Assembly: GCF_900176375.1 (NCBI RefSeq) | Contig: NZ_FWYF01000001.1 | Coordinates: forward strand, 1,312,449 to 1,376,448 | Source: Reichenbachiella faecimaris | GTDB taxonomy: Bacteria; Bacteroidota; Bacteroidia; Cytophagales; Cyclobacteriaceae | DNA: 64,000 nt | Reading direction: 5' to 3' | In this document: in pieces, positions 1 to 35,680 of the stretch | How positions within the stretch are numbered: the stretch's first letter is position 1 | Layout of the letters: the number at the start of each line of letters is the position of its first letter | Position numbers and translations under genes: made by a program | Notes under the pieces: model-generated | The model's database searches: none | Told to the model about the DNA's origin: nothing | What the model saw: only the letters and a program-made list of their open reading frames with translations

Positions 1-2390
1 GGTTGCAAAGTCAATGTTAGCGTTTCCACACCTTCAAATTCAGAATCATCTATGGGCGAAACTGTGATAACTTGAGTGAGGTTGCCAGGACTTAAAGTAA
101 CACTGCCGGATAACGCTGGTGTACTGGTATAATCACTACCTGAAGTGGCTGAGCCAGATATTGTATATCCTACACTGATCGACTGAGCTACATCAGAGAT
201 TGAGATCGTAAATGTTCCGGTATCTCCAGCTTCAGCGGCAGCAGCATCTGTGGCTTCTATGTTTACTGCCGCAGATACATTGATGGTCACTTGATCGGTA
301 TGATTTCCGTCATCTGTAGTAACTGTGATTACCGTCTGCCCCACACCTGTTGCTTCAAAGGCTCCAGTTATTTCATTCAGCGTACCAACCGAAGGATTGC
401 TATTGGTATAAGCTACCGTTTTGTTTGATGCATTCTGGGGAACAAACGTTGGTGTAAGGCTGGTGATTTCACCAATAACCATGTCTAATGGCCCATCAGG
501 CATATCGACTGAAATTACCCCTATGGGTTCGGTGAAAAAGGTGTTGACAACTAAATTTCCAGTCGTAATAATACTGTCTTGTGTTTCCCAGCTTATCCAT
601 TGGGGATTATACAAATCTATTTGTCCACTGGCACTTGCTGCAATACCAGTTCCTCCATCGGTAAAAACTACTGTGTTATGGTCATAGGGATCAAGTCCTG
701 TCCCATCCACTTTTAATGAATGGAATTCTATATTCTGGTAAGGCCCCCCTTCCAATGTGATCGCATGCCTTTGAGAATCGATGATATCGATATCCTCCCA
801 GTATACATTCCAAAGCCCTACAGCACCTGAAAGATATATAGCACCAATCTCTTCATTGAACAGATCATACGTAGTACCATGATTGATGATGGTAATGTTA
901 CTCATTACGGACTGGTTATTCTGGAGGAATTTAAACCCTGGGAAGGTATCTGTAAAACGAATACCAGCACAACCCCGACCGTCTCTAATAAGCACATGAT
1001 TCACGCCATGACCATCTGCACCATGAAATGCAACGCCTCCTGCTCTCCAAACATTTTCTACCGTACTAAATTGCAGTGTGTTGTGCGTACCAGGAATACC
1101 GTGCCCCCAGTTGTCTGAAGACCAAACGGCAAATCCATCGTCACCACTATTTCTTATGTTAGTATGCTCGACAGTACAATGGTTGCTTCCTTCAGCGAAG
1201 TTGACACCATCAGCATAATTGTTTCTAATTCTGGCATTTGTGATCAACAGGTACTCAGTGATATCTTGTGGAGCGCCTTCAACAGCAAAGTCATAATCCG
1301 CGAACCACATGCCCGTTTCGAAATGCTCTACCCATACATCTTTAACTACACTGTTGCTTCCCCATGTTCCAAAAATACCTTTGTATCCTTTATAAGGTTC
1401 GTTCCATCCAGGTATCCTCTCGTTATCCGGACAAAAGCGATCGTTGTTGTTGGTCGTAACATGGACATCAGAAAATTCTAAATTATCCGCACGGGCTTTT
1501 ACACCTCCGGAAAAAGCCAGGTCAGAAGAAAAGAAGAGCTCTGTATGCCAAATACCGGCACCTTGCACCGTGATATTACTGGCGTTTAATCGAAATTGAC
1601 CATCGAGATAATACTTACCAGCGGGTATATACATATTCTTACCCTGTGCGTTGGCATCGGCCAAACACGCATGAAATGCAGCCAGGTCGTCTATTGTATC
1701 ATTTCCATTGGCATTGTATGGCGCATCTGTAACTGAAAGTGAATTTGCCGGAGCACCTTTTACTGGTTCAATTTGCTCGATTTCAATGAAATCAATCCCA
1801 TACTCGAAGCCATTTCCACCAGTCTTTTCCAGTCGAATGCTACTACCAGGAGAAAGTGGTGTGTTCAACTTGAAGTTGATATCATCAAAATACATTCGAA
1901 CTTCAGTGAACCCTGCATTTGGGACATTACCACCTTGAGCCCCTTGGAATTTATTTAGGTAATGAAAAGCCCAATAGGAGTTTAGCGTGATCGTTTGATC
2001 CAAACTGCCATTGACATATACATTCAAATCACCTTGATTGCCTAGGCCACTAGCATTGTCAGGAATGGTAAACCTCAGTGTCACCCCATCGGCGAACTCA
2101 TTCACCGTCCATTGCACGTAATCGCCGTCCGACGACAAAGCCAAATAATGTTGGCCTGATGCCTCGGCGGCTGCCACGTCCGGAAGAAATTCATAATCCG
2201 TTCGAGCTTGTGCTTGCGACTGATTGGTATCATCAGATTCGTACCTGGTGTACGGCATTTGATAAGCTCCTCGTGGGAGCCCATCACCCTGAGCGAAAGT
2301 GTTGTAAGTCATTAATACCAGACTGACTAGTCCGAATATTGAGGTTACACTCCTTCGCCATTTTTGTAAACATTCGTTTTTCATAGTCAT
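1..2390 (-). CDS. Secreted GH87-type beta-helix alpha-1,3-glucanase/mycodextranase, 3' end beyond the window
   Basis: The reading frame is open from the left edge to an ATG at 2390; a second in-frame ATG lies at 2384, and an in-frame stop just upstream excludes a longer start. The product has a signal peptide, a CBM6/35-like beta-sandwich (about residues 35-205), a right-handed beta-helix (about 215-560), a BIG2-like domain (about 610-690) and a Calx-beta-like repeat running off the edge. In the helix, YADGVNF puts an Asp at residue 394 and SGDDG puts Asp at 417 and 418. This 23/24-residue spacing matches, as I recall it, the three catalytic Asp of GH87 alpha-1,3-glucanases. Inference: an endo-enzyme opening an alpha-1,3-glucan or nigeran outside the cell. 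A general pectate-lyase-fold enzyme is the alternative. It is separated from the GH97 gene by a terminator, so it may have its own promoter. Confidence 0.72.
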   Translation of the reverse strand, partial: MTMKNECLQKWRRSVTSIFGLVSLVLMTYNTFAQGDGLPRGAYQMPYTRYESDDTNQSQAQARTDYEFLPDVAAAEASGQHYLALSSDGDYVQWTVNEFADGVTLRFTIPDNASGLGNQGDLNVYVNGSLDQTITLNSYWAFHYLNKFQGAQGGNVPNAGFTEVRMYFDDINFKLNTPLSPGSSIRLEKTGGNGFEYGIDFIEIEQIEPVKGAPANSLSVTDAPYNANGNDTIDDLAAFHACLADANAQGKNMYIPAGKYYLDGQFRLNASNITVQGAGIWHTELFFSSDLAFSGGVKARADNLEFSDVHVTTNNNDRFCPDNERIPGWNEPYKGYKGIFGTWGSNSVVKDVWVEHFETGMWFADYDFAVEGAPQDITEYLLITNARIRNNYADGVNFAEGSNHCTVEHTNIRNSGDDGFAVWSSDNWGHGIPGTHNTLQFSTVENVWRAGGVAFHGADGHGVNHVLIRDGRGCAGIRFTDTFPGFKFLQNNQSVMSNITIINHGTTYDLFNEEIGAIYLSGAVGLWNVYWEDIDIIDSQRHAITLEGGPYQNIEFHSLKVDGTGLDPYDHNTVVFTDGGTGIAASASGQIDLYNPQWISWETQDSIITTGNLVVNTFFTEPIGVISVDMPDGPLDMVIGEITSLTPTFVPQNASNKTVAYTNSNPSVGTLNEITGAFEATGVGQTVITVTTDDGNHTDQVTINVSAAVNIEATDAAAAEAGDTGTFTISISDVAQSISVGYTISGSATSGSDYTSTPALSGSVTLSPGNLTQVITVSPIDDSEFEGVETLTLTLQ

Positions 2391-5908: not shown

Positions 5909-5937
5909 TTTTATATAATTTTTTTAAAGCCAGAGTA

Positions 5938-7752: not shown

Positions 7753-7768
7753 AGTTGTAGGCGTCTAA

Positions 7769-10741: not shown

Positions 10742-10777
10742 GCTTGTTTAAAAAGTCAAATAGTTTTTTTCGGAAAT

Positions 10778-10806: not shown

Positions 10807-10814
10807 AAAGTACC

Positions 10815-11789: not shown

Positions 11790-12096
11790 AATAATAGATG
11801 TTTAGTTATATAATTTTTGTTTTGGTATTCGATCGGTGACGGGAGTGAGTTAATCACCCGACCGAAATGCTGAAACAATGTTATGATTTGCGAAAGCTGA
11901 AGAGGTGGAAATACGTGATCAATAAGTGGAATTTTGGGACAATCCTGTCAGTACACATCAAAATAGGCCTTTAAAGACAGGTATTTGTTTGCGCCTTGAT
12001 AGCTCAAATTTTAATATGACACTTACTTTTTGTATGTTTATTGAAGTTTAGTCCTATTACCTAACCAACCAAATAGGCAAGTAACCGGCAACATAC
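11790..12096. promoter_or_regulatory. Divergent control region of the PUL
   Basis: 307 bases between the PKD lipoprotein (leftward) and the hybrid regulator (rightward), with no gene. The clearest structure is an imperfect inverted repeat at 11833-11865, with TCGGTGACGGGAGTGA facing TCACCCGACCGA around a GTTAA loop and small bulges. Its place just upstream of the leftward operon makes it a candidate operator for the regulator (inference). The rightward half is AT-rich, with a TACTTTTTG stretch near 12023 that may be part of the regulator's promoter. Confidence 0.45.
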
Positions 12097-18322: not shown

Positions 18323-18326
18323 GATA

Positions 18327-19913: not shown

Positions 19914-19945
19914 AGCAATTGATTTAGTTTTAAAAAGAGAAAGAA

Positions 19946-19967
19946 GGGGGTAATTTTCATTACCCCC
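19946..19967 (-). terminator. Hairpin between glutamine synthetase and glutaminase
   Basis: GGGGGTAA (19946-19953) and TTACCCCC (19960-19967) form an 8-bp perfect stem with a 6-base loop. On the minus strand TTCTTTCTCTTTTT follows. It is probably a partial terminator that makes glutaminase and amt less expressed than glutamine synthetase. Confidence 0.55.
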
Positions 19968-19993
19968 ACTTAGCTGATTGATCAGACCTTCGT

Positions 19994-21113: not shown

Positions 21114-21223
21114 CAAAAGTATATGAGGGTACTTACGTGTTGTTAGCACAAATCCGGCAAATAAGATCAAATTCCCGACACCCTGGCCTGTTACAATTCC
21201 GTCGCGCTAACACTATTCCGACA
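21114..21223 (-). promoter_or_regulatory. 21-base-repeat promoter of the glutamine synthetase operon (site a)
   Basis: Read on the minus strand: boxes centred on the G at 21220, 21201, 21177 and 21156 (GTCGGAAT, GACGGAAT, GTCGGGAAT, GCCGGAT), then TACTTTTG at 21121-21114. The two proximal boxes are 21 bases apart and the last box is 35 bases from the -7 box. Four boxes instead of two suggests cooperative or graded control. It shares the extended sequence GCCGGATTTGTGCTA with sites b1 and b2. Confidence 0.65.
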
Positions 21224-21285
21224 AGAAATAGTCCAATTAATTGACAGAATCGTCCAGTAAGCTGTCTACTTCGACGAGTGATATT

Positions 21286-21325
21286 TTAAAAAAAGAAGGG
21301 TGCGACCCATACCAGCCACACCCTT
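21286..21325 (-). terminator. Intrinsic terminator of the adhesin gene
   Basis: AAGGGTG (21296-21302) and CACCCTT (21319-21325) pair, and on the minus strand CTTTTTTTAAAA follows. It lies 47 bases after the adhesin stop codon. Confidence 0.6.
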
Positions 21326-21371
21326 ACACTTCTAAGCGATTTTAGAAGCTTTCTAATCAGCATCTTTATAC

Positions 21372-24300
21372 TTAATGTTTGATAATCTGCTCTGCAGACA
21401 AGCCTTTTTCATTTCGAATCATTAATAGATAGGTTCCCGGATTTAGATCGTTTAAATCAAATTCCAGATCATTGCCTACAGATTCATTAGTTACTCTTAC
21501 GCCCTTAAGGTCGATCAGATAGGCCTTTACCTTTTCTGTGGTTTTTACGTGCAAAACACTGCGCGTAGGGTTTGGGAAAATTTCCCAATCATCCTGCATT
21601 GGTTCAATACCTAAAACTGTTTCTTCTCCTTCTTCCTCGTCTTCGTCTTCCTCGTCTTCCTTGTCTTCTTCTTCGTCGTCTGCAACTTGGCTTACGGAAA
21701 CGAGCCAGTCCTGAGTGGTCCCATCTTCTGCTGTGACGGTGTAAGTCACCTGATTGGTAAAGTCAACGACAGCATTACTTACTGGAGAGCTAGTAGCTCC
21801 AGCTGATAAGGTGACCGTAGGAGATAATGCTGAAAGGTTCGCTGCTGAACCCACTTCGATAGCAATGCTAAGCGCATCTGCATCAATACTTGCCACGCCC
21901 GTTTGCTCAGTCAAAACAAAACCAATAACGTCAGTGGCATTACTCAGAACTACCTCATCTACATCTGTCAAATTGATTTCGACGCTCGTACTTGCTGTTT
22001 TGACCGGATTCAAATTATCGCTTACCACCACAGTAAGTTCAAACTTCGACTTCGTTTCAAAATCCAATGCGGATGAAGTGTTAACCTCTATCTCTCCATT
22101 GTTATTGATTCGGAAGGCATTGCCTGTGTTTCCCGCCGTGATCATATAGGATAGAGTTTGAAAAGTATCTTCATCTGTACTGGTAATGATCGCTGCTATA
22201 GTACCTGCCACTGCATTTTCATCCAAGGCATTGATATCAACATTAGAAATGACTGGTTCAAATTCATTGACATCGTTGATTGAAATCGTCACCGTTTCTA
22301 CTGTTTGCAGAGATCCTATCCCTTCATCAGTAATTCTTACCTCAAGCACAATCTCCTGAACACTCTCATAGTCTAGGCTAAACGACCCACCAGCAGCACC
22401 AGCTGCCCTAAAAAGCACCTGAGATGACGCTAAACTTAACTCCCCCGTCTCAAAGTCCAGGGAAAGAAATCCCTCCTCGCCGACAGACAAAATTTCAAAA
22501 GAACCGATACCATCTGAATCGTCAGAACTCAAAATAGCGATTACGGTACCCTCTGGAGAATTTTCATCTATTGCAAATTCCTTAGCAAGCAAGCTTGGGA
22601 ATTGATTGACAAATACGAAGATCTCTGCTGTGACAATCTTTGATAAGCTTCCATCGCTCACCTCTATTCCCAATTCGTACTTGGGTGTACTTTCTACATT
22701 GATTAGGCTGGCGTCTGCTACAGTGCCTACGCCAGTATTCGCATCCACAGCAAATACACCATTAGCATTTCCTGATATAATCGTAAAAGTCAGCTCATCA
22801 TTTTCTGGATCGGTGGCAAGCAGTGTGCCCAACACATAGCCATTTTGCACAAAGGCACTCATACTCAAACTCATATCCTGAGCTATTGGCGCTTCGTTGA
22901 CATTGGTCAGATTGATCGTAATAGATTCTTCTACAGACAAACTGCCCTGACTATCATCGGTTGCTTGCACGATGAGCCCAAAAGACGATTGTGTTTCAAA
23001 GTCCAATGCACTTTCATCAATAACCTGAATCTGTCCATCCGTTCTTATGGAGAATATACTCGCACCATTGCCCCCTACAATAGAGAAGCTAATATCATCC
23101 CCATCGCTGTCGGAAGCATCTACTATACCTACTTCCGTACCATTGGCTGCATTTTCATCTATTGTGAATATAGCCGATATAATCTGTGGAGCCGCATTTT
23201 TGAATACTCTCATCGGAACATCTGTATCTCCCGTAAGCTCGGGCGTACCATCATCTGTCACCGCTACTACCAGGGTGATATTTGTGTCATTGTCCAGTGC
23301 CTCCAATGCCACGCTGTTGACCACTGTGATTTCTCCAGAAGCGGCATCTATGTTAAAAATACCATCGTCATTTCCCGCAGTGATCGCAAAAGTATGTGTC
23401 TGCCCAGCGTCTTGATCCTGAAAAGTCATGGTTCTAATAACAGAGCCATTTGGCAGGAAACCACTGATATTGATATCAAGTGGGATGCTCAATACTGGTG
23501 CTTCATTCATGTCATTGAGCGTGATGGTAACAATAGCCGTACTGGCTAAGGGTAAATTTGCATCGTCATCTTGCACCTTCACCTGGAGCTCGAAAACCGA
23601 CTGTTCTTCAAAATTTAATACTGTTTCATCATTCACGGTGATTTGGCCAGAACCACTTATAGCAAAGGCATTGTTAACATTGCCATCTACAATAGAGAAA
23701 ATGATCCCGTCATCGTCGCTGGCTATAACTTGCATTGCTACTGTGTCATTAATTGTGTTTTCGTCTAGTGAAGTACTCTGGTTAGCAATGACCGGAAACT
23801 CATTGTCTATGATATCTATGGTGACTGTACCTGTAGACGTGAGTGACCCAGGCCCCTGATCTGCGGCCTGCACGGTAAGTTCAAAACTGGTAGTCGCTGA
23901 TGATTGAAGTGCAGACTCATCTGTCACAGTAATCAGTCCAGTATTTTCATCTATAGTAAAGATACCCTCATCATTTCCCGATACAATACTCAACAACTGA
24001 TCGTGATCTTCTTCATCATCAACAGAAACGCGCTCTACTTCACTGCCGTTGAGCGCAAAGCGACTCAATGAAACTGTGGTAGAACTAACACCGGCTGCGG
24101 TGTTAGGCCCGTCCTTGATGAGGATAGTGAATGTACCTTCGCTGTTTATTTCATTCCAGAGCTGTAGGTAGTAATCCGTATTCGGTTCTACCACCATACT
24201 GAAGGTGCCATCAGATTCACAAATACTGATACCTTCCCCTCCACATTCATCATACGCTTCAATTTGCATGTAAGAAGCTGCCTCCAATGGCCCTGTAGCA

Positions 24301-26045
24301 TCTGTATCTATTAACTCCAGAGTTATGGACACCTCTACATTAGATCCAGAATTGAATTGATACCAAACGTCATTGATATTGGCATAAGGATCACAATCAT
24401 TATAATCTGTAAAGATCGTGGCGTTGGCATTCGTACCCGAAGAGGGAGTACCTTCTACTTCCGCAAAGACGGTCAGCTGCTCAGCTTCATTACAGTTGTC
24501 GTTGGCAGGAGGCGGAATGGTAGGCTGACTGCTCACTGTCATATCAAACTCACCACTATCACTATCATATCCATCTACCAAAACATAATATTCATGCCCC
24601 TCTAGAGAATTGAATTTCACGGTGGATCGATTGCCTGAGCATTCATCATCATCATCATTACCTGCTAAACAATCTAATCCTGTTGAACAAGACCCAGCAT
24701 ACACACTGATGCTGGTATCAAAGTCGGCAAAATCACATGTGCTTAGCTTAATTGTTTCTCCATTACCTACTATTCGATACCAGACCCCTACTGAAGCACC
24801 CTGTTCATCAGTTTCGTCCACAAAATTAGATCCACAAGCAGGGGCCACAGCAGCATCGTTAGTCGCAAATGTTGTATTGCCAGATACGGTCTGTCCTACA
24901 GCTACTGTGATAGCCTCTGAGCAAAAGTCATTACACAGTTCACCTGCACCTTCAATGATCCAATTAAAAAGTGTTTCCAACTTATTAATTGCGTCTCCTG
25001 CACCACAATAAATTAATCCATCTGCGCCTAGTACGATATCACTTTGCACTTCCTGGTTAGACCACCCAATGAGGGTATTAGAGAAATTGTCACGAGATAT
25101 TGCGGCTCCATCAAAAACTGCCAACATATTCCCCACTGAAGTGACATCCAAATTTCCCAAGTTTTGGTTGAAAGAAATAGCATCCTGAAACATCCCCCTC
25201 ATATTGGTGGCAGATTCAAGTTCCCAGCTTGAAATATCTATATTAAAAGCATTGGCACGCTGAAACATGAACGACAAATTCTGAACATTCCTTACATCCC
25301 AATCACTAATATCTTGATTAAAAGCATCAGCATCTACGAACATGCCCTGCATATTCTCTACCAAACCTACTTCCCAGTCACTGATGTCCTGATTAAAAGT
25401 GCTGGCACGAATAAACATATCTCTCATATTGGTAGCTGAAACTACTTTCCACTCGCTTATGTCACTATTGAAACGGGTAGCGTCTGCAAATAATCCCTGC
25501 ATGTTCTTGACATGGCTCACATCCCAGTGGTTCAAGTCATCATTGAAAAACTCCGCCCCTCCAAACATGACTTCCATAGTCTCTATCTGACTAAGATCAG
25601 GTGCGTCCGTAGCACTAAATCCCGTTCCGGGCCAGTCAGAAAAACTTCTGTTCATACTGAGCCACACAATATCCCCCCATTGCACTACATCTAGAAGTTG
25701 TGCTTTGGTATAGCCAAAAAAGCGAGGAAACTTACCACTGATCTGAAGTCGGTACCTGCCAGGTGTAGGTATTGAAATAACCAAGTCATCTCCCTCTGTC
25801 GTAAAATGGGAACCATCGTCTATCACATTGATGATCACCTGACCAGACTCATCTATTTGATCAAAGGAATATTGAAAATCATACGTGTCGTCAAAGCTTT
25901 CAGTGTCATTACACGGAAGTTTAAAATCATCCGTAGAAGAAAACTCCCACGTGGTGATGAATGGCTCAGTCTGTGCCTGCACCATAAATGGTCGGATAGA
26001 CAATCCAAATAATATGCATGCGAGTAATCGGAGTTGCTTTGTCAT
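21372..26045 (-). CDS. Giant T9SS-secreted adhesin: BspA-like (DUF285) repeats plus cadherin repeats
   Basis: 1557 residues. Signal peptide (about 1-25); six or so BspA/DUF285 repeats (about 150-325) of the form NMxxMFxxAxxFNQDISxWxV; two PPC-like beta domains (about 375-650) with conserved Cys; six to seven cadherin-type repeats (about 660-1350; recurring FTIDENTG, LDFETxSxFELTVQ and VTISINDVNE); a DUF5018-like domain (about 1370-1450); a strongly acidic linker (about 1455-1478); and a type A T9SS sorting domain (WEIFPNPTRSVLHVKTTE to the end). Likely displayed on or released from the cell surface for adhesion; cadherin repeats usually bind calcium. Three copies of the 21-base promoter motif lie in the 813 bases upstream. 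Confidence 0.85.
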   Translation of the reverse strand: MTKQLRLLACILFGLSIRPFMVQAQTEPFITTWEFSSTDDFKLPCNDTESFDDTYDFQYSFDQIDESGQVIINVIDDGSHFTTEGDDLVISIPTPGRYRLQISGKFPRFFGYTKAQLLDVVQWGDIVWLSMNRSFSDWPGTGFSATDAPDLSQIETMEVMFGGAEFFNDDLNHWDVSHVKNMQGLFADATRFNSDISEWKVVSATNMRDMFIRASTFNQDISDWEVGLVENMQGMFVDADAFNQDISDWDVRNVQNLSFMFQRANAFNIDISSWELESATNMRGMFQDAISFNQNLGNLDVTSVGNMLAVFDGAAISRDNFSNTLIGWSNQEVQSDIVLGADGLIYCGAGDAINKLETLFNWIIEGAGELCNDFCSEAITVAVGQTVSGNTTFATNDAAVAPACGSNFVDETDEQGASVGVWYRIVGNGETIKLSTCDFADFDTSISVYAGSCSTGLDCLAGNDDDDECSGNRSTVKFNSLEGHEYYVLVDGYDSDSGEFDMTVSSQPTIPPPANDNCNEAEQLTVFAEVEGTPSSGTNANATIFTDYNDCDPYANINDVWYQFNSGSNVEVSITLELIDTDATGPLEAASYMQIEAYDECGGEGISICESDGTFSMVVEPNTDYYLQLWNEINSEGTFTILIKDGPNTAAGVSSTTVSLSRFALNGSEVERVSVDDEEDHDQLLSIVSGNDEGIFTIDENTGLITVTDESALQSSATTSFELTVQAADQGPGSLTSTGTVTIDIIDNEFPVIANQSTSLDENTINDTVAMQVIASDDDGIIFSIVDGNVNNAFAISGSGQITVNDETVLNFEEQSVFELQVKVQDDDANLPLASTAIVTITLNDMNEAPVLSIPLDINISGFLPNGSVIRTMTFQDQDAGQTHTFAITAGNDDGIFNIDAASGEITVVNSVALEALDNDTNITLVVAVTDDGTPELTGDTDVPMRVFKNAAPQIISAIFTIDENAANGTEVGIVDASDSDGDDISFSIVGGNGASIFSIRTDGQIQVIDESALDFETQSSFGLIVQATDDSQGSLSVEESITINLTNVNEAPIAQDMSLSMSAFVQNGYVLGTLLATDPENDELTFTIISGNANGVFAVDANTGVGTVADASLINVESTPKYELGIEVSDGSLSKIVTAEIFVFVNQFPSLLAKEFAIDENSPEGTVIAILSSDDSDGIGSFEILSVGEEGFLSLDFETGELSLASSQVLFRAAGAAGGSFSLDYESVQEIVLEVRITDEGIGSLQTVETVTISINDVNEFEPVISNVDINALDENAVAGTIAAIITSTDEDTFQTLSYMITAGNTGNAFRINNNGEIEVNTSSALDFETKSKFELTVVVSDNLNPVKTASTSVEINLTDVDEVVLSNATDVIGFVLTEQTGVASIDADALSIAIEVGSAANLSALSPTVTLSAGATSSPVSNAVVDFTNQVTYTVTAEDGTTQDWLVSVSQVADDEEEDKEDEEDEDEEEGEETVLGIEPMQDDWEIFPNPTRSVLHVKTTEKVKAYLIDLKGVRVTNESVGNDLEFDLNDLNPGTYLLMIRNEKGLSAEQIIKH

Positions 26046-26105
26046 AATTCTTAGTGATTAAATAGCTCTATTTATTTTTATAATTATTTCAATAATTAAT
26101 AGAAG

Positions 26106-26172
26106 CAAAATTAGATTTCTTGTCTATCGAGCAACTAGCACAAATCCGGCAAATACCATAAAGATTCCGACA
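26106..26172 (-). promoter_or_regulatory. 21-base-repeat promoter of the adhesin gene (site b1)
   Basis: Boxes TGTCGGAAT (G at 26169) and GCCGGAT (G at 26148) are 21 bases apart; the -7 box TAATTTTG (26113-26106) is 35 bases past the proximal box. The adhesin ATG follows after about 55 bases of AT-rich leader. Confidence 0.65.
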
Positions 26173-26411
26173 GACAGAATCACATGAAGAATCTGATGGT
26201 ATTTTTCTAACAAAATTGAATTGACTATCAGGAATGGGTATCTAGAGAGCCTCTAGCCCTGATTACTAAGAGCGATAAATTGCTGCTCTTCGTCATGAGC
26301 TTTCTGAATGATCAGAAAACTCATGAGAAGAATGATATGAACGGTGCTTTTCATATCAGCTATAAAAAAGGTGTATACAGATTGATTAAAAAGGATATTC
26401 GTGATCCTAAA

Positions 26412-26479
26412 CAAAAAGGAAGCGACCGAACCGCTGAACTGAGTGCCTGTCCGGTCGCTAGCTACTTTGCTATGTTAAT
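26412..26479 (-). ncRNA. Putative short RNA or attenuated leader driven by site b2
   Basis: About 67 bases from the predicted start to a terminator. The terminator pairs AGCGACCG (26421-26428) with CGGTCGCT (26452-26459), followed on the minus strand by TCCTTTTTG. No start codon with a usable frame lies inside. Boundaries are estimates from the -7 box and the T-run. Confidence 0.4.
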
Positions 26480-26484
26480 CATTA

Positions 26485-26550
26485 CAAATGTAGATAGCAG
26501 GACATCCTAGCACTAGCACAAATCCGGCGTATCTCATAACATTCCCGACA
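26485..26550 (-). promoter_or_regulatory. 21-base-repeat promoter (site b2)
   Basis: Boxes TGTCGGGAAT (G at 26547) and GCCGGAT (G at 26526), 21 bases apart; the -7 box TACATTTG (26492-26485) lies 34 bases past the proximal box. The next coding gene is more than 400 bases away, with a terminator in between. Confidence 0.6.
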
Positions 26551-26595
26551 GGGATTTGGTGAATCGAAAACAAATAATACTGACGGTACAACAGT

Positions 26596-26626
26596 AAAAA
26601 AGGCAACTGGAAAACCAGTCGCCTTT
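26596..26626 (-). terminator. Strong intrinsic terminator in the adhesin upstream region
   Basis: AAAGGCAACTGG (26599-26610) pairs with CCAGTCGCCTTT (26615-26626), with one mismatch, around an AAAA loop. On the minus strand the stem runs into TTTTTT. It probably stops read-through from the metalloprotease gene and from site b3. Confidence 0.65.
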
Positions 26627-26700
26627 AACCCCTCATTATACTACCAACTCTAGAGTGAGTTGGCAACCTTAACTCTAACCTAATTTCTTTGGGCGATTAT

Positions 26701-26776
26701 GAAAAGAAGACTAGAATACCATTTCTTACATGATTTCCAGCCGTCTTTGTTGTTGTGAATAGTCTTTTATATTATA
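26701..26776 (-). ncRNA. Putative short RNA driven by site b3
   Basis: From the predicted start about six bases after the TAGCTTTG box to a hairpin AAGACTA/TAGTCTT (26707-26713 with 26760-26766) followed by CTTTTC. The hairpin is weaker than at b2, so the transcript may instead run on about 180 bases to the terminator at 26596-26626. No open reading frame fits either length. Confidence 0.3.
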
Positions 26777-26781
26777 TAACA

Positions 26782-26848
26782 CAAAGCTAAAAATGACCTT
26801 ACCTCTTCACTAGTACTTTTCCGGTAAAACCAAGCACATTTCCGACAG
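26782..26848 (-). promoter_or_regulatory. 21-base-repeat promoter (site b3)
   Basis: Boxes TGTCGGAAAT (G at 26844) and ACCGGAA (G at 26823), 21 bases apart; the -7 box TAGCTTTG (26789-26782) lies 34 bases past the proximal box. It begins only about ten bases after the metalloprotease stop codon. Confidence 0.55.
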
Positions 26849-26858
26849 GCACAGATTG

Positions 26859-29372
26859 TTAATTCTCTTTTCTGATCTTTTGAAAAATGATACCTTGTGA
26901 TCCTTCAATGACAAGTACATAAATACCTGGCTTTACTGTTTGTAAATTCATTTTCAAATGGTTTCCTTTCTGCATTGGTATGACCTGATGTCCGCCAAGA
27001 TTCACCAATTGAACCTCCACATTTTCTGTAGTCTTTATATGTAAAAAATCATGTGCTGGATTAGGAAAAATGCTCCATTTTTTGTTTGGCTCATCAAATC
27101 CTAATATTTCATCATTTTGTTCATCAGTATCTCCTTCTTCTTCCGTGCAGGCCGTTGAATCCGCTCCATCATCATTTATGATCCAATTGTATTCGTTGGT
27201 CAGTATCGCTCTGCCATTGTCAGCATCATTGCAATAGCTGAGACCTTCAGCACCCAATTCTACTTCGCTCTGAACCTCCTGCTCTGACCAATTCATTAAT
27301 ATTTGACCGTAGTTCTGTATGGACAAACCAGACCCATTAAGCATGGCTTTCATATTGGTAGCAGATGTCACATCCCAACTAGCTAGGTTTTGATCAAATG
27401 AGCTTGCATTTTCGAACATACCCTGAAAATTGGTTATTGACGAAGTTTCCCATTCCGAAATATCCTGATTGAAAGACTCGGCTCTTTGAAACATAAAGGC
27501 CATGTTTTCCACTTTATCCACCTTCCATGAACTTATATCCGCATTGAAAGCTGTAGCCCCAATGAACATTCCATTTACGGTAGTGACCGAACTAACATTC
27601 CAGGTGCCTATGTTTTGATTGAAAGAACTGGCTCCATTAAATGTACCTGACATTTTTGTTACCTGACTAACGTCCCAGCTACTGATGTCTTGATTAAAAG
27701 TGTTGGCTCTTTTGAACATATTTCTCATTTCGCGTACCCGACTTACATCCCAGCTGCTAATGTTTCCATTAAATGATGTTGCACCTTCAAATACTTCATT
27801 CATTCGAATGACTTTACCAACGTTCCATTCACTAATATCTTCATCAAAGTTTGGCGCATCCCTAAACATTCCACTCATGTTGGTAACCAAACGTGTAATG
27901 GGCACATCACTTGCGGTAAATCCTGTACCTTGCCATTCAGAAAACATTCCTGTCATCTCTATCCAAAATACATGCCCCCAATGGGTAAGGTCAATTAACT
28001 TATCAACAGGATAACCTTCTTTCAGATGTGGGAAGTCTCCCAAAATTTTCAGCTCATATTCGCCAGCAGTACTCAGAGTGGTTGAAAAATCACCATCTAC
28101 TGAAGTATGTGTATCTGCCTCTAGGGTATCTCCGGCCAAAACCCAGGCATACTCAAAATCATAATCGTAGCCAGTATTTAATGGGAGCGTAATGGTCTCT
28201 CCTGCTTCTACTTGCCAAACTGTAGTAAATGGGCTGAGTATTTGAGCACTAACCGTCCAGTCCTGACTTTCTCCCCTCGAATTAGTGACTGTGTAGGTTA
28301 CTGGCCCACTAAAATCCAAAGTGACTTCGCTTTCTGGAGAAATCTGAGATTCGGGAGCCACATGAATCACAGGCTGAAGCGAACTAAGATCTGTTCCCTT
28401 TTCCATCAAAATCAAAACTGTTTGGCTCTCCACATCAATGATGGCTGGCTCTGTTTGTTTTGATAGTTCAAAACCTATAATACTTAAATCGGTCGATAAA
28501 TAACTCCGACGATTGGCATAAATGGCACTAATCAAACTATACTGCCCGTCTGTAAAGCTATCTGTACAATCTGCACGCATGTAACTCATGATATTATTGG
28601 TATGTGGAGCAAATGCATCTCCATTTTCGTCAGTGGCCGTTCCGGTATACTCGCAGCTGGGATTAACGTTGTTTTGTAAGGACTCCCGATCTGCAGGTGT
28701 GTCACATAGTTGATCCCCTGCCCCTTCGCAATTGGGCGGGAGTGTGCCATTCGATGATCCACCCGGCCGCACAACTAACTCATCGCCCGAACCATTTTCG
28801 AAAGTATGTCTAATACTAAAATAATGAGCCAATTCATGTGAGAATACCTTGTCCACCCCCATACATGAATTCTTCATTAAAATCATATCTTCTGCACCAG
28901 GAGCAGTACTATGCCCACAAAGCGCTTGTCCAAATCGGGTTAAAGTGTTCACCATGTAGACATTGATGGTCTGTGGCCTATGGAAGTTTTCATAAATGGG
29001 GGTCCGTTCCGTACCCACATCAAGATTGTAAAACGTATTTGAGTCTATATATACAAATTCGCTTACAAAAAAAGACAGCCCTGCATTACTATAGAGGTCG
29101 TTGACTTCTTGGATTCCAGAATTTACTTTTTGCTCGCTTACGCCACCTGTACCGTCGCTTTTCCTAACAATAATTACTGTGACGGCCAGACTTATTGGTT
29201 CGTCGGTTTTAATCCTGGCATTAGGATTTGAGTTTACTTGTTTCGCAAGGCGATTATATACCTCTTGTTCCTCAGGTGTAAGCGCCGGTGAGTAACATCC
29301 ATATTCCTGTGCGTGAACTTTGAATATTAGCAAACAAAATAAAAAGCTCACAATTATCAGTTTATTAATCAT
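26859..29372 (-). CDS. T9SS-secreted M43 (pappalysin-like) metalloprotease with BspA-like repeats
   Basis: 837 residues. Signal peptide (cleavage near HAQ, about 22); M43 peptidase domain (about 60-295) with zinc motif HELAHYFSIRH (His179, Glu180, His183, His189) and a Met-turn NNIMSYM about 90 residues on; DUF5018-like domain (about 300-380); a beta region; eight or so BspA/DUF285 repeats (about 490-690); and a type A T9SS sorting domain (WSIFPNPAHDFLHIKTTE to the end). Family members usually have Gly where Ser186 stands. Expected to cut proteins outside the cell. It shares three module types with the downstream adhesin gene but in another order, which suggests module shuffling between neighbours. 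Confidence 0.88.
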   Translation of the reverse strand: MINKLIIVSFLFCLLIFKVHAQEYGCYSPALTPEEQEVYNRLAKQVNSNPNARIKTDEPISLAVTVIIVRKSDGTGGVSEQKVNSGIQEVNDLYSNAGLSFFVSEFVYIDSNTFYNLDVGTERTPIYENFHRPQTINVYMVNTLTRFGQALCGHSTAPGAEDMILMKNSCMGVDKVFSHELAHYFSIRHTFENGSGDELVVRPGGSSNGTLPPNCEGAGDQLCDTPADRESLQNNVNPSCEYTGTATDENGDAFAPHTNNIMSYMRADCTDSFTDGQYSLISAIYANRRSYLSTDLSIIGFELSKQTEPAIIDVESQTVLILMEKGTDLSSLQPVIHVAPESQISPESEVTLDFSGPVTYTVTNSRGESQDWTVSAQILSPFTTVWQVEAGETITLPLNTGYDYDFEYAWVLAGDTLEADTHTSVDGDFSTTLSTAGEYELKILGDFPHLKEGYPVDKLIDLTHWGHVFWIEMTGMFSEWQGTGFTASDVPITRLVTNMSGMFRDAPNFDEDISEWNVGKVIRMNEVFEGATSFNGNISSWDVSRVREMRNMFKRANTFNQDISSWDVSQVTKMSGTFNGASSFNQNIGTWNVSSVTTVNGMFIGATAFNADISSWKVDKVENMAFMFQRAESFNQDISEWETSSITNFQGMFENASSFDQNLASWDVTSATNMKAMLNGSGLSIQNYGQILMNWSEQEVQSEVELGAEGLSYCNDADNGRAILTNEYNWIINDDGADSTACTEEEGDTDEQNDEILGFDEPNKKWSIFPNPAHDFLHIKTTENVEVQLVNLGGHQVIPMQKGNHLKMNLQTVKPGIYVLVIEGSQGIIFQKIRKEN

Positions 29373-29414
29373 GTCGATGTTGGTCTAAGTTGAAAGCTGG
29401 AAAGGCTTATTATG

Positions 29415-29479
29415 AAAAAACGACTGGTATACCCTCTGCTAGAGTAACCAATCGTTCTATCCATTGTTATGATTATTGC
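29415..29479 (-). ncRNA. Putative short RNA or attenuated leader of the metalloprotease gene
   Basis: About 65 bases from the predicted start of site c to a hairpin pairing AACGACTGGT (29419-29428) with ACCAATCGTT (29447-29456), one mismatch, with TTTTTTC directly after on the minus strand. The metalloprotease start lies 43 bases further on, so this could be a leader attenuator rather than an independent RNA. Confidence 0.42.
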
Positions 29480-29484
29480 TTTCA

Positions 29485-29572
29485 CAAAAGTATTCTGACC
29501 TTCTCTTTTTGACTATCATAAAACCGACGAATACTGCTATTGTTCCGACTAAAACATGTAAAAATCCGACAT
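29485..29572 (-). promoter_or_regulatory. 21-base-repeat promoter of the metalloprotease gene (site c)
   Basis: Three boxes with exact 21-base spacing: GTCGGAT (G at 29568), GTCGGAA (29547) and GTCGGTT (29526). The -7 box TACTTTTG (29492-29485) is 34 bases past the last one. Confidence 0.65.
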
Positions 29573-29596
29573 TGGAGGATTGCTGTCAATTCCATA

Positions 29597-29634
29597 AAAC
29601 AAAGAATGAGCATTGATCAACTCAATGCTCATTC
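29597..29634 (-). terminator. Intrinsic terminator of the COG4315 lipoprotein gene
   Basis: GAATGAGCATTG (29604-29615) and CAATGCTCATTC (29623-29634) form a 12-bp perfect stem with a 7-base loop, followed on the minus strand by TTTGTTTTATGG. Confidence 0.7.
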
Positions 29635-29669
29635 GCACTATTTACTTGAACCGAATATTGCTACTCTGT

Positions 29670-30527
29670 CTATTCAGCTGCAGCAATATTTTTATTTACG
29701 ATAGGCCAAACGCCTGGGCTAGGCACACTTACTCCTTTTGTATCCCCTCTTTCAGTGTCTTGGCCGTAGTAGTACAAAGGCCATCCTTTATAAGTCACTT
29801 GACTCTCTCCAAATACATCGATTGTACCAAAATCAGCCATATCAATAGATGATACGACAGCATCCAGTTCTTTAGTATATACTGGCCATACGCCATCATT
29901 AGAAAAGTCGCTGGCTGTAAAGTTGTTGGTGTCTTTAGAATCGCTAGCGAAAGTGTAAATGGTTCGTCCTTGTGAATTCACAAAATAAGCGGTTGAGCCG
30001 TCTCCTTCTGCATAGTCAGAGGTGTAGTTTTTACCGTCATTACCCACAAGCTGAGCATTGGCATACATGATAGTATAATTGGGCTTAGCCACAAACCATA
30101 CGCCACCAATTGCCTCACCAGATGTGTTGTTAGCTGCTTCCAATTCTCCATCGCCAGCAGGGGCATAGTAATAAAGCGGCCAGCCCTTGTATGTGGTCTG
30201 CTTAGCACCATTGGCATGAGTAATTACTCCAAAATCAGCGCTTTCTAATCCTGAACTTATTTCCGCTTCCTTTGCATAAAAAATAGGCCAGCTATCCAAA
30301 CACCCTTCTGTACAATTGCTACTTCCAGCTACATCTTTAGCAAAAACATATAGCGTAACCCCATTCGCATCCGTAAGGACGTCACCTAAAGTGGCGTCGT
30401 TGTATAACTTGATCATCGAGTTGGCTTCTACTGAAGGCTCATCATTTTCATCGTCTCCACACGCTGAGAAGGTAATTAATGCTGCCAACAGCAGCATGGC
30501 ATTCATGTGGTTAAATAGATTTTTCAT
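29670..30527 (-). CDS. COG4315 / Lipoprotein_15 repeat lipoprotein
   Basis: 285 residues. Lipobox TFSAC (Cys 23), an acidic linker, then two long halves each holding paired secreted-repeat units of the PF03640 type: DANGVTLYVFAKD with CTEGCLDSWP, KGWPLYYY, then SQGRTIYTFASD with NDGVWPVY and again KGWPLYYY. The family is widespread, usually outside the membrane, and of unproved function; it often lies near redox or haem genes. It is the last gene of the envelope operon here, 127 bases after DUF5777. Confidence 0.82.
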   Translation of the reverse strand: MKNLFNHMNAMLLLAALITFSACGDDENDEPSVEANSMIKLYNDATLGDVLTDANGVTLYVFAKDVAGSSNCTEGCLDSWPIFYAKEAEISSGLESADFGVITHANGAKQTTYKGWPLYYYAPAGDGELEAANNTSGEAIGGVWFVAKPNYTIMYANAQLVGNDGKNYTSDYAEGDGSTAYFVNSQGRTIYTFASDSKDTNNFTASDFSNDGVWPVYTKELDAVVSSIDMADFGTIDVFGESQVTYKGWPLYYYGQDTERGDTKGVSVPSPGVWPIVNKNIAAAE

Positions 30528-30654
30528 TGATTTTTAATTTTAAAATGGTTGTTATTGATTTATTTCATCGACTTGTGTTTGAATTAGACATAGCATACCC
30601 CTTGTGAGTATGAAATCACCTCGTCTACATCAAGTCTTAGAAAGCGCGTTTTTT

Positions 30655-31527
30655 TTAATTCACCTGAAAGGTTCTTGAGATGTTGAATCCAAAATGGATC
30701 TCTCCATCAAAGAAATCATTGGTTGTTTCAGTGATAAATCCTTTGGGCACCATAGCGGTGGCATTTGTAAACTGAAGCTGGAATACGTGGCCTCCAGTTT
30801 CAATATCAAACCCAATGGCTATGGCATTTGTAGTTCCTTCATTCAACTGCTGAAATTGATAGTAATATTCTCCACACAGCGCTACGCGCTGAGACAATTT
30901 GATCCGACCACCTACACCTAAGGCAAAAATATCATTATTCAGCTCTCCCTCTTGGATCAGGTTTCTATGTACCCATGAGGGCATCAACTGCAGCGAGATG
31001 CCATTACCAAACTTGCGAGCGATCAGCAGTTGATTGGTATTAGCCAGTTTGTCTTGAAAGCTCAAGTCTTGATCTGGAGATTTTAAGGTTCGGATCGCAG
31101 CAGCGCTTAACCAGGTCACAGATAGTGGCATGGTCTTGCTGCCAGTCGACTGCCTAAGCAAACGATACTTCACAAAACCGTCATAGGTTTTTTCGAAAGA
31201 ACTACGTCCTAAGCCAAAGTATAGTCGATCAGTTACAGCATATTCTAACCCAATACGAATAGACGCTTGATCTAGCCCGAACAGCTCATAAGTACCGCCG
31301 TCGATGGTGCCGAAGCGGTGAGAGATCATGAAATCCATAACTCCCTTTTTTCTGGTTTCAATAGAATGACCGTTGATCACACGGGTCCCTTTGAAAGTCG
31401 CTTCGATCCATGTCGTCTCATCTGCTTGTTCTTCTTCCAAACTAGCCAACAAATCATCTTGCGCAGCAAGAGTCATAGAAAAGACAAGAAATGAAAGTGT
31501 TATCACTAATGGTCTCATAGTCGTCAT
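30655..31527 (-). CDS. DUF5777 family outer-membrane beta-barrel protein
   Basis: 290 residues with a signal peptide (cleavage after LAAQ, about 23). The mature chain is rich in alternating beta strands ending in aromatic residues, with the family-like start WIEATFKGTRVINGHSIET and MDFMISHRFGTIDGG and a C-terminal strand FGFNISRTFQVN. An outer-membrane barrel is likely. Its start overlaps the end of the YceI-like gene by four bases (ATGA), so they are coupled. In other Bacteroidota DUF5777 is often found with YceI and cytochrome-type genes, as here; its role is unknown. Confidence 0.8.
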   Translation of the reverse strand: MTTMRPLVITLSFLVFSMTLAAQDDLLASLEEEQADETTWIEATFKGTRVINGHSIETRKKGVMDFMISHRFGTIDGGTYELFGLDQASIRIGLEYAVTDRLYFGLGRSSFEKTYDGFVKYRLLRQSTGSKTMPLSVTWLSAAAIRTLKSPDQDLSFQDKLANTNQLLIARKFGNGISLQLMPSWVHRNLIQEGELNNDIFALGVGGRIKLSQRVALCGEYYYQFQQLNEGTTNAIAIGFDIETGGHVFQLQFTNATAMVPKGFITETTNDFFDGEIHFGFNISRTFQVN

Positions 31528-32069
31528 TTTTTGAAATTAAAGGCTGCCTTAACCTCAACCACCTCTGCAATATTTTTGATCACCAGCTTTGGTATGTCAA
31601 TGTCATGATCTGCGATTGAAATAGAAAATTCCGTAGCGGCCTTTAGCGATGAAGGGAAAATTTCAAATTTCACTACAGTAGTCAAAGGTTTGCTCACGCC
31701 ATGGATTTCCATTTCTCCCTCGGCCTCAGCTTCAAAAGTTCCTTCTTTTGAAAAGTTTAGATTGGCGAAATTCTTTATCACTCCTTTGAAAGTTGCCTTT
31801 GGGAATTGCTCAGATTCCAGATAGTTCTCATTAAAGTGCTCTTCCATCAAACTCTTATCAAAGTGAAATTTCTTCATGAACATTGAAACAGCCAATGTTC
31901 CTTTTTGAAGGTCTATTGCCCCAAGTACTTCTTTGTTGACAGCTTCGATGTCTTCCATGGGTGCCTCTGAGAAAAAAGAAGCCACGCCTTCCCTGTCTAT
32001 AAGGGGTTGAGCCATAGTTTGTACACCCGTTACAACCACGATCAATAGTGTCAAAATTCCATTCTTCAT
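31524..32069 (-). CDS. YceI-like periplasmic lipid-binding-fold protein
   Basis: 181 residues with a signal peptide (cleavage after MAQ, about 21). The mature chain matches the YceI layout: LAVSMFMKKFHFDKSLMEEH, ESEQFPKATFKGVI, then GEMEIHGVSKPLTTVV and a final strand pair. YceI proteins form an extended lipocalin-like barrel that holds a long isoprenoid or fatty ligand. Placed between the SprB-cytochrome c lipoprotein and DUF5777, it probably works with them in envelope redox or quinone-like ligand handling (inference). Confidence 0.87.
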   Translation of the reverse strand: MKNGILTLLIVVVTGVQTMAQPLIDREGVASFFSEAPMEDIEAVNKEVLGAIDLQKGTLAVSMFMKKFHFDKSLMEEHFNENYLESEQFPKATFKGVIKNFANLNFSKEGTFEAEAEGEMEIHGVSKPLTTVVKFEIFPSSLKAATEFSISIADHDIDIPKLVIKNIAEVVEVKAAFNFKK

Positions 32070-32142
32070 GTTTTTAGATTTTTAGTTAGAGTCCCTTTCC
32101 AATTCTGAAGCCAGACAGGGATTAAATAATTAGTATGATTGA

Positions 32143-32925
32143 TTAGTTAGAAAGCGCTCCATCATTGACCCAGCAGGCAATAGCATCAATTTCACTTTGA
32201 GGAAGCGAGCCACTCGGAGGCATAGTTCCAGCACTCGTTCTGGCCATAATACGACTGGCCTTGTTGCTTATCTCTTCAAAAGAACCAAAGCTTGGAGATG
32301 CACTCGAACCATGACAGCTCGTACATCTATTTTTAATAATTCCTTCTACAGTACTAAATTTCACTCCAGACGTCAGTTTCACACTGGTTGTGATTTCGCA
32401 TCCTTCCTGATCTTCAATACTTATATTATGCGTACCTCCCGCAAGTCCAGAAAAGGTATTGCTGTTCTGTGTATTTCCTCCGTCAATACTATAGAGATAG
32501 GGTTCTGTTCCTCCAGAAGCGGTGATTTCTACTGTGCCTTGTGAGGTCTGACAGCCTGCGTCTGTTGTCAAAATATTATCAAGATTGACGCCGTCCGAAT
32601 TCAACACTTCTACTGTTATTTCATCAGAGCAGCCATTCACATCAGTAACCTGCACTGTATAGCTTCCAGCGCCTATATTTTCGAATAAACCTTCTGCACT
32701 TGCGCCTGCTTCTGATGAGAAAGTATATGGAGACTCTCCACCAGAAACGCCAAGGCTAAATGCACCATTGGCTGTACCACAGGCTGTCTCGCTTGTTTCT
32801 AACAGTTCGACCTGAACGGGTGAAATAGAACAATCAAATGTTGACTCCATTTGATCCCAGGCACAAGATGAAATACCTAACAGGAGCAAACAACTGGTCG
32901 CTCTCCATGCAGCTTTTATATTCAT
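32143..32925 (-). CDS. Lipoprotein fusing SprB-type repeats to a cytochrome c domain
   Basis: 260 residues from the ATG at 32925, chosen because the lipoprotein signal (LGISSC, Cys 21) follows directly; an upstream ATG at 32958 with a GAGG element would add 11 residues. After the lipobox come two SprB-type beta repeats (about 30-105 and 110-180; GGESPYTFSSEAG, GSYTVQVTDVNGC, GGTEPYLYSIDGG) and a small c-type haem domain (about 185-260) with CTSCH as haem-binding motif and a Met in GTMPPSG as likely axial ligand. It is expected at the outer membrane or periplasm, carrying electrons or sensing a redox state. It heads the operon and has promoter site d upstream. Confidence 0.82.
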   Translation of the reverse strand: MNIKAAWRATSCLLLLGISSCAWDQMESTFDCSISPVQVELLETSETACGTANGAFSLGVSGGESPYTFSSEAGASAEGLFENIGAGSYTVQVTDVNGCSDEITVEVLNSDGVNLDNILTTDAGCQTSQGTVEITASGGTEPYLYSIDGGNTQNSNTFSGLAGGTHNISIEDQEGCEITTSVKLTSGVKFSTVEGIIKNRCTSCHGSSASPSFGSFEEISNKASRIMARTSAGTMPPSGSLPQSEIDAIACWVNDGALSN

Positions 32926-32995
32926 AACAGAAATTATTTCGGCAATCCAGCTGACCATTCAATTCCTCTGGATTTGATACTCAAATTTATTTCTG

Positions 32996-33105
32996 CAAAG
33001 CTGAAGGGTAACCCATCAGTACACTGGCACATTTCCGTCGAATACCATAACATTTCCGACATGGCGCAATAACAAAACCGACAAGGTTATAACAATTCCG
33101 ACATT
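32996..33105 (-). promoter_or_regulatory. 21-base-repeat promoter of the envelope operon (site d)
   Basis: Four boxes read on the minus strand: GTCGGAAT (G at 33100), GTCGGTT (33080), GTCGGAAAT (33058) and GACGGAAAT (33037), spaced 20, 22 and 21 bases. A CAGCTTTG box (33003-32996), one change from TAnnTTTG, lies 34 bases past the last one; a perfect TAAATTTG at 32989-32982 is at the wrong distance. The site also abuts the 3' end of the hydrolase-AraC gene. Confidence 0.6.
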
Positions 33106-33118
33106 AGCATTCAAAAGA

Positions 33119-34780
33119 CTACTGAAGCAGGTCAGTAGGACTTAAGCTAAACTCCTTTTTAAATGACTTAGAAAAATAAGATGGGCTGGAGAATCCAGTT
33201 TGAAAGGCAACTTCTGAAATATTAAGTTGTTGATTGAGAATCAGCTCTTTTGCTCTATGTAGCCTCACTGAAGAGATCAACTGATTTGGGGATTTGTTGG
33301 TGATAGCTTTCAGCTTGCGCTGCAACTGCCGTTCGCTAATTCCCAACTCTTTGCAAAGGGTGTCTACGCCAAAAGATTCATTACTCAAATGCTCCTCTAT
33401 GCTTTGCAATACGTTTTCGAGCAATGAAGAATTTTGAGGCCATGTACTCTTCTGAATAGGAACAATATCTTCGTCATCGTCAAAATAATTCTTGACGCTA
33501 TATAACGACAATGACTCATCAAAAAAAGAAGCGTATATACCCGGGTGGGGATTCAGCGTCAAACCTGCTCCCGATAGCAAATGTTTAACCGTTTGTGTAA
33601 TTAGAATTTCGTTGGGCTGAATTTGTTTAATGATAGAGTCTACAAAATCCTCTGTCTGTTCACCAATGGATTGAGAATCTCCCAATGAGCATTCTTTGAT
33701 ATGGACACCAGCGGCCAGCTGAACATCGGATTTCCGTAAAGCATTCGCTAAATCCAAACTGCAATGAACAGCTTTGCTTGGCCCTGTGAAAGTAGCGATA
33801 AACCTTTGGGCATTGTACTGAATGAATCTGCCTTTGTATTGATTGATATACCGATCTAGGGTCTGTTTGACCTGATTTTCTTTGTTGTCCGAAGAAATAA
33901 TGCGCGCTGCCAGAATAGTGACTAATTGTCTTTCTCTGCTGTCATTTGGCTCTATTTCGGTAATAAAGGATTTCATTTCTCTTAGAACTTCCTGTGTATT
34001 GCCCACCCAAAACAGATGATCATCACCATCAAACTCAACGAATTTTGCGCCTTTGATTCGCTCGGCTATGAATTTGCCTTCATCGATTTTAACATCTATA
34101 TCATTGGTGCGCTGCATCATGAGCGTGGGTACATCTATAGAACCTAAAATATCTATGATATCTACCTCAGTGTTCATTTTTGTGAGAACCATGGCAGCAC
34201 TAGGGCTAGCTCCCGAACGGAAGTAATTCGCCAGCCAATCCATAAACTCTTCGTCATCAGCTTTTGAAGGCGCCAGCGATTCCAAATTCATATCCCCACT
34301 CCCCCAGCTGTTTTCGATCATGTCATACACCTTCTGCCTTTCCTCATCAGTAGGTGCCCATGGGTAATTGGCATCATAGCGGCGTTTAGCAAAAACACCA
34401 AATGTGATCAAAGAGACTGTTCTTTTGGGATAGGTGGCGGCAAACAAAGCGGATACAGATCCTCCTTCCGAATGACCAAACAAGATGGCTTTTTCCGAAC
34501 CTACCGCATCCATCACTGCCCGGATATCATCCATTCTTTCTTCGAGCGTAGACAGCTCTACCACTCTATCAGAAAGGCCAGTGCCTCGTTTATCAAATAG
34601 AATGACACGGGCAATTTTACCTAATTCTTCAAAGAAATGCACCAGCTCTGGACAAGCCCACATCCAGTCAATATTCGACACCCATCCAGGGATATATACC
34701 AAATCAACTGGGCCAGAGCCAAAGATTTGATAGGCAATATTGATACGTCCACTTTTGGTGTATTGTGTAGCAGGTTTCAT
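33119..34780 (-). CDS. Three-part regulator: alpha/beta hydrolase, degenerate class III cyclase-like domain, AraC HTH
   Basis: 553 residues, no signal peptide. The first part (about 1-270) is an alpha/beta hydrolase with nucleophile motif GHSEGG (Ser104), FDKRGTGLSD and a GDDHLFWVG His region. The middle (about 280-420) follows the class III nucleotide cyclase fold as found next to such hydrolases in other bacteria, but the metal-binding Asp positions read LAARI and YNAQRF, so it should be inactive and may sense a ligand. The last part (about 455-553) is an AraC DNA-binding domain (ISEVAFQTGFSSPSYFSKSFKKEF). The gene ends beside promoter site d and is a leading candidate to bind the 21-base repeats, since AraC proteins often use direct half-sites 21 bases apart (inference). 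Confidence 0.85.
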   Translation of the reverse strand: MKPATQYTKSGRINIAYQIFGSGPVDLVYIPGWVSNIDWMWACPELVHFFEELGKIARVILFDKRGTGLSDRVVELSTLEERMDDIRAVMDAVGSEKAILFGHSEGGSVSALFAATYPKRTVSLITFGVFAKRRYDANYPWAPTDEERQKVYDMIENSWGSGDMNLESLAPSKADDEEFMDWLANYFRSGASPSAAMVLTKMNTEVDIIDILGSIDVPTLMMQRTNDIDVKIDEGKFIAERIKGAKFVEFDGDDHLFWVGNTQEVLREMKSFITEIEPNDSRERQLVTILAARIISSDNKENQVKQTLDRYINQYKGRFIQYNAQRFIATFTGPSKAVHCSLDLANALRKSDVQLAAGVHIKECSLGDSQSIGEQTEDFVDSIIKQIQPNEILITQTVKHLLSGAGLTLNPHPGIYASFFDESLSLYSVKNYFDDDEDIVPIQKSTWPQNSSLLENVLQSIEEHLSNESFGVDTLCKELGISERQLQRKLKAITNKSPNQLISSVRLHRAKELILNQQLNISEVAFQTGFSSPSYFSKSFKKEFSLSPTDLLQ

Positions 34781-35677: not shown

Positions 35678-35680
35678 CTG

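Follow-up and report, generated by a model that had tools for sequence, protein, structure and literature searches.

Do the paired boxes that recur at six promoters of the marine Reichenbachiella faecimaris mark a single regulon, and which protein would read them? The promoters, here called a to f, lie on the minus strand between 21.1 and 33.1 kb of a 64,000-nt stretch of the genome (contig NZ_FWYF01000001.1, positions 1,312,449 to 1,376,448), referred to below as the window, from whose first letter all window coordinates are counted. The comparative analysis presented here suggests that the six sites very probably form the in-genome regulon of a protein encoded beside them (33119-34780, minus strand), in which an alpha/beta-hydrolase, a degenerate cyclase-homology domain and an AraC-type DNA-binding domain (HTH_18) are joined, and which we call the AraC fusion.

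Paired Sites and Promoter Geometry

Each of the six promoters carries a distal box TGTCGGAAATGTTATGG and, exactly 21 nt further, a proximal box GCCGGATTTGTGCTAG, and the aligned consensus of the six sites is TGTCGGAAATGTTATGGTATTTGCCGGATTTGTGCTAGTG. All six pairs were found with the positions, spacing and single orientation that an earlier sequence-only reading of this DNA had reported, and 21 nt is also the commonest spacing among the plus-strand CCG[AGT]C boxes of the window (6 pairs). The same reading described the proximal boxes as GCCGGA-type, which holds for a, b and c and not for d (ACCGGA), e (GTCGGT) and f (GACGGA). Similarly, it was right in assigning additional upstream boxes to a, where CGG recurs at -25 and -44 from the distal box (21181-21230), and wrong in assigning them to c and d; the other promoters that have them are e (one box, at -22; 29551-29578) and f (two boxes, at -23 and -43; 33062-33108), all on the minus strand.

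A -7 box of the form [T/C]AnnTTTG begins 33-34 nt past the proximal CGG at every site; the earlier description had already included the single C for T. TAnnTTTG is the -7 element recognized by sigma-A of Bacteroidota (PMC6847099; PMC9723704), and it is exact at five of the six promoters, the sixth having CAnnTTTG. The boxes read TACTTTTG at a and e, TAATTTTG at b, TACATTTG at c, TAGCTTTG at d and CAGCTTTG at f, and a clear TTTG box is absent from the usual -33 position. With the G of the -7 box taken as -5 (PMC6847099), the half-sites are placed at approximately -70 to -54 and -49 to -33. The arrangement is that of an AraC-type site, with asymmetric direct-repeat half-sites about 21 bp apart and the proximal one at the -35/-33 region. 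At araBAD (araI1-araI2), the two half-sites occupied by E. coli AraC form a direct repeat with a spacing of 21 bp, the proximal half-site extends over the -33/-35 region, and further half-sites lie upstream. The window sites resemble this system in spacing, in the further upstream half-sites and in the AraC-type helix-turn-helix (HTH) of the proposed regulator, whereas the half-site sequence is different, the promoter is of the Bacteroidota sigma-A type, and the cupin that serves E. coli AraC as sensor is replaced by an alpha/beta-hydrolase with a cyclase-like domain.

Rarity of the Motif in the Genome

Two profiles were used, R1, built from the six window boxes only (42 columns, with the -7 box left out), and the larger R2, which extends over the -7 box and for which part of the training sites came from family genomes. 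Over the whole 4.7-Mb genome, R1 returned exactly the six sites (E 4.5e-9 to 5e-6), the next best match having E 0.6, and the motif is thus local and not a general genomic repeat. The matches were promoter a (21114-21180, -7 box at 21121-21114; E 7.5e-8), b (26106-26172, -7 box at 26113-26106; E 4.5e-9), c (26485-26550; E 1.5e-8), d (26782-26847; E 1.3e-6), e, the weakest (29485-29550; E 5e-6), and f, 58 bp beyond the stop of the AraC-fusion gene (32996-33061; E 1e-8), and all lie within approximately 12 kb of that gene. These E-values are circular for the six training sites, unlike the leave-one-out and other-genome tests; in leave-one-out scoring of 127,917 window positions, five of the six sites ranked first and site e (29547) ranked third. 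A scan for sigma-70-type promoters gave no excess, and no Rfam family reached its gathering score over 20.9-33.3 kb.

The sequence-only reading had named as adverse a motif lying as often inside genes and away from -7 boxes. Instead, none of the 82 complete sites in the loci examined is located inside an open reading frame (ORF) of at least 150 aa, although such ORFs span 77% of these loci. Being intergenic, tied to -7 boxes, rare and local, the boxes probably serve, as that reading supposed, as half-sites for the activator of a regulon, placed so as to overlap the -33 region of its promoters.

Co-occurrence with the AraC Fusion

Extending the profile scan to relatives, as had been proposed, R1 matches at E<=0.01 were obtained in 30 of 295 genomes of the family, about three being expected by chance. 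Orthologues of the fusion (at least 58% over the full length) are encoded by 37 of the 295, comprising 27 of the 30 motif genomes vs. 10 of the 265 without a match (Fisher 1e-26, or 7e-26 once the genome of the window is removed, values that take no account of shared ancestry). With R2, a site at E<=5e-4 was found in 31 of the 37 orthologue carriers and a weaker site close to the gene in three more. Two of the three R1-matched genomes without an orthologue (G045, G272) have no -7 box at the match and look like chance matches, the third being G013. In the genus of the window, the site is present in each of the three species that encode the fusion, and the five species without the gene gave no R1 match and, with R2, one site at E 8.6e-6 and one at E 0.08. 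TAnnTTTG or TAnnTTCG accompanies 34 of 55 matches in the family neighbourhoods, and some of the others are weak or read the same array in a second register. The number of sites is 1-5 in most genomes. Some sites are distant from the AraC-fusion gene or on separate contigs, and in two genomes a site stands directly before the gene itself, which suggests autoregulation; both observations fit a trans-acting regulator.

The AraC fusion is also encoded in Aquimarina, Kordia, Dokdonia, Christiangramia, Gillisia, Flagellimonas, Maribellus, Flavilitoribacter and other genera. An R2 site (E<=0.01) was identified in 33 of 42 AraC-fusion loci, mostly from other orders and including Flavobacteriia, nearly always on the strand of the gene and often 40-400 bp beyond its stop. 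R1 alone recovered 21 of these loci at the same threshold and gave no match in 29 control loci picked solely for another AraC HTH domain. Moreover, TAnnTTTG occurs exactly +58/+59 from the distal box in 32 of 36 R1 matches of AraC-fusion loci, a stretch outside the R1 model, and fewer than 10 times at all other positions of those 400-nt windows combined. Further GTCGG boxes concentrate at -21/-22 and -40 to -42. The HTH recognition segments of the fusion are nearly invariant, and a search for covariation of HTH residues with lineage-specific box variants (CGG vs. CGT in Aquimarina) revealed nothing clear. At loci L056 and L076 (in G200 and G161), copies of the motif are followed within approximately 40 nt by a common stretch GTGCGACCCAACCAGCGGGTTT, and the -7 box is altered.

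Architecture of the Proposed Regulator

The AraC fusion has 553 aa, consisting of an alpha/beta-hydrolase (residues ~1-277), a middle domain and a two-HTH AraC domain (HTH_18, 84 bits; HTH_AraC, 61 bits). Conservation of the hydrolase domain is far above that of the rest of the protein, and S104, D227, D229 and H255 are invariant across 36 orthologues; both the fold and the Ser-Asp-His set of an alpha/beta-hydrolase are present. The AlphaFold model, whose mean pLDDT of 75 indicates moderate confidence, matches the fold of D14 and KAI2 (Z ~25-26; rmsd 3.1-3.6 over ~255 residues), with RsbQ in the Foldseek list. The fusion thus shares fold and Ser-Asp-His set with the receptors RsbQ, KAI2 and D14 and differs from them in being fused to a DNA-binding domain; the fold does not single out a receptor function, since ordinary esterases match it about equally well.

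Hydrolase matches filled the list of the structure search, which was therefore uninformative on the middle domain. By sequence, residues 3-405 match the NCBIfam model NF058673 of LipJ (Rv1900c), the lipase-adenylate cyclase fusion of Mycobacterium, with 251 bits against a cut-off of 800, and the middle region matches 1ybt, the cyclase part of LipJ. In contrast to LipJ, the fusion scores below the model cut-off, carries an additional C-terminal AraC HTH and does not keep the metal aspartates of class III cyclases, no conserved Asp being present around either expected position in the 36 orthologues. We infer that the middle domain is a dead cyclase domain, retained for dimerisation or signal relay. 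Related hydrolase-cyclase proteins of 32-54% identity (G046:C148, G080:C71 and C148, G086:C275) align to residues 1 to 416-431 of the fusion only, and the AraC domain is apparently absent from them. The closest solved HTH by sequence, 12aw, is that of a hybrid two-component protein, a resemblance to the hybrid two-component AraC regulators of Bacteroidota, from which the fusion differs in being a one-component protein without kinase or receiver domain.

Proposed Mechanism and Alternatives

Direct binding of the AraC fusion is inferred from the sequence comparisons, and the position of the sites points to activation rather than repression. Dimers of the fusion would bind TGTCGGAAATGTnAT and nGnCGGATTTGTnCTAG, half-sites of 17 nt that form a direct repeat with 21 nt from start to start, and from there recruit sigma-A RNA polymerase to promoters that have a good TAnnTTTG -7 box and no clear TTTG -33 box, and at some promoters a second dimer could occupy the upstream pair of half-sites (-21/-22, -40 to -42). 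A small ligand resembling an ester or lactone and recognized by the hydrolase domain may control the activity, the signal being relayed through the catalytically dead cyclase-like domain, which may serve dimerisation.

Besides the shared ancestry mentioned above, several observations weigh against assigning the six sites to this protein. Site e is weak, as its leave-one-out rank shows, and the -7 boxes of d and f have a G at -10, which is disfavoured by the F. johnsoniae consensus TAHHTTTG (PMC6847099). Three genomes (G112, G133, G268) carry the orthologue without a clear site; conversely, G013 has a convincing site and G124 a weaker one, and neither encodes the orthologue. The site in G013 (C3:32118-32184; loci L068 and L130) is complete, has its -7 box and precedes a nonribosomal peptide synthetase (NRPS) gene.

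The fusion could also bind and repress, or change between activation and repression depending on its ligand, as the proximal half-site spans the -33 region and a bound protein could block polymerase there. We consider this unlikely, given that the constant distance to the -7 box and the missing TTTG box where the -33 element normally lies fit an activator. Less probable still is that the sites are bound by a different regulator, either unlinked or, for instance, the hybrid two-component AraC protein encoded at 12097-16437, and that the fusion merely co-occurs with them. Co-occurrence does not imply binding, and other AraC-type HTH proteins are present in G013 and G124, the two genomes with a site and no orthologue; however, the absence of R1 matches from the 29 control loci speaks against it, as does the fact that in most lineages the hydrolase-AraC gene is the sole window gene adjoining a site.

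The second candidate put forward by the sequence-only reading, a LytTR response regulator (34961-35677) encoded with a HisKA_2/TPR kinase (together 34961-37582, minus strand), is very improbable, and comparative genomics favoured the AraC fusion, the reading's other candidate. LytTR regulators such as AgrA, ComE and VirR recognize direct repeats that lie near -35 with a spacing of about 21 nt, and the LytTR gene adjoins the locus; close orthologues (at least 57%) are encoded by six of the 295 family genomes, five of the six having the motif, and in G068 and G154 they are neighbours of the AraC-fusion gene. However, we rejected this candidate because of its poor co-occurrence with the motif, the close orthologue being absent from 25 of the 30 motif genomes, and in remote relatives within the phylum the AraC-fusion gene has the motif at its side and this LytTR gene is missing. 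Finally, all six pairs can be read in frame as a membrane helix (VGNVMVFAGFVLV, 21 nt being 7 codons) that ends near a stop codon, but a coding origin as remnant or copy has a negligible chance and was rejected because start codon and common N-terminus are both absent and the upstream boxes of f, 20 and 22 nt apart, cannot share one reading frame; the constant distance to the -7 box in many genomes and the lack of sites within larger ORFs also speak against it.

Targets and Significance of the Regulon

With the AraC fusion as the preferred regulator, the predicted targets can be named. Promoter a precedes an operon (17117-21001, minus strand) of a GlnII-type glutamine synthetase, an EF-hand/glutaminase/ankyrin protein and an ammonium transporter (Amt), whose linkage is conserved. 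Promoter b precedes the gene of a cadherin/DUF285 surface protein with a Por_Secre_tail (21372-26045, minus strand), and promoter f an operon encoding a cytochrome c/SprB protein, YceI, a DUF5777 barrel and Lipoprotein_15 (29670-32958, minus strand). Neither c nor d lies immediately ahead of a gene, as an intrinsic terminator precedes any ORF at c (TSS+19..58, i.e., counted from the transcription start site, TSS; ~26460-26415) and at d, which lies directly beyond the stop of the M43 gene (TSS+150..176; 26626-26599). At e, a terminator (TSS+22..60) likewise stands before the gene of an M43-like peptidase/DUF285 protein with a Por_Secre_tail (26859-29372, minus strand). The regions concerned are window 26785-26415 and 29480-29425, minus strand, and transcription ending at these terminators would be expected to yield short RNAs or attenuated leaders. 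Comparable terminators occur ahead of the AraC-fusion gene in G028 and G100.

In relatives, recurrent targets are the GlnII-glutaminase-Amt genes, adhesins and the operon type found at f (cytochrome/YceI/DUF5777/lipoprotein), the last being the commonest. GlnII and/or glutaminase with Amt follow the fusion and the site in Christiangramia, Gillisia, Aequorivita, Flagellimonas, Maribellus and Flavilitoribacter, indicating that the link to nitrogen assimilation, already noticed in the window alone, is old. Other first downstream genes encode BspA-type leucine-rich repeat proteins, Pvc16 of contractile injection systems, CsgE, AMP-binding/NRPS proteins, a beta/gamma-crystallin, a cytolysin-like protein, an amidase and small secreted GPxAKNRK-repeat proteins. 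A wider proposal, to which we give somewhat less than an even chance, is that of a phylum-wide one-component system, in which the D14/RsbQ-like hydrolase, whose residues are better conserved than those of the DNA-binding domain, would be the receptor of one conserved small molecule. Binding or hydrolysis of this molecule would switch the AraC domain and, through it, jointly control glutamine/ammonium metabolism, adhesins and the envelope redox operon, together with genes for contractile injection, curli and peptide synthetases.

An AraC-type regulon is a known kind of system, and in the literature, as far as it was covered, we found no mention of the motif, the alpha/beta-hydrolase-AraC fusion, this operon or the breadth of the regulon. 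To our knowledge, few Bacteroidota regulons have been defined outside polysaccharide-utilisation loci. For one regulon spanning several orders, motif and promoter architecture are given here together with a proposed, named regulator, making it possible to predict the controlled genes genome by genome, and the fusion itself would allow a direct search for its ligand. The regulon ties GlnII-glutaminase-Amt to surface and antagonism functions, which suggests one environmental cue for both.

The small secreted proteins (~100-120 aa) contain repeated (T/Q)GPxAKNRKPW-like units and are encoded downstream of the site, often before GlnII-glutaminase-Amt (e.g., L049:8517-8825, L168:9829-10161, L163:3881-4207, L154:11830-12138 and L191:9899-10240); those tested had no Pfam or NCBIfam match. 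The glutaminase of the window (18327-20096) combines EF-hand_14 with ankyrin domains, as do the kidney-type glutaminases of animals. Elsewhere in the window, a SusC-like receptor, a PKD protein and a hybrid two-component regulator (2592-16437) constitute a probable polysaccharide-utilisation locus.

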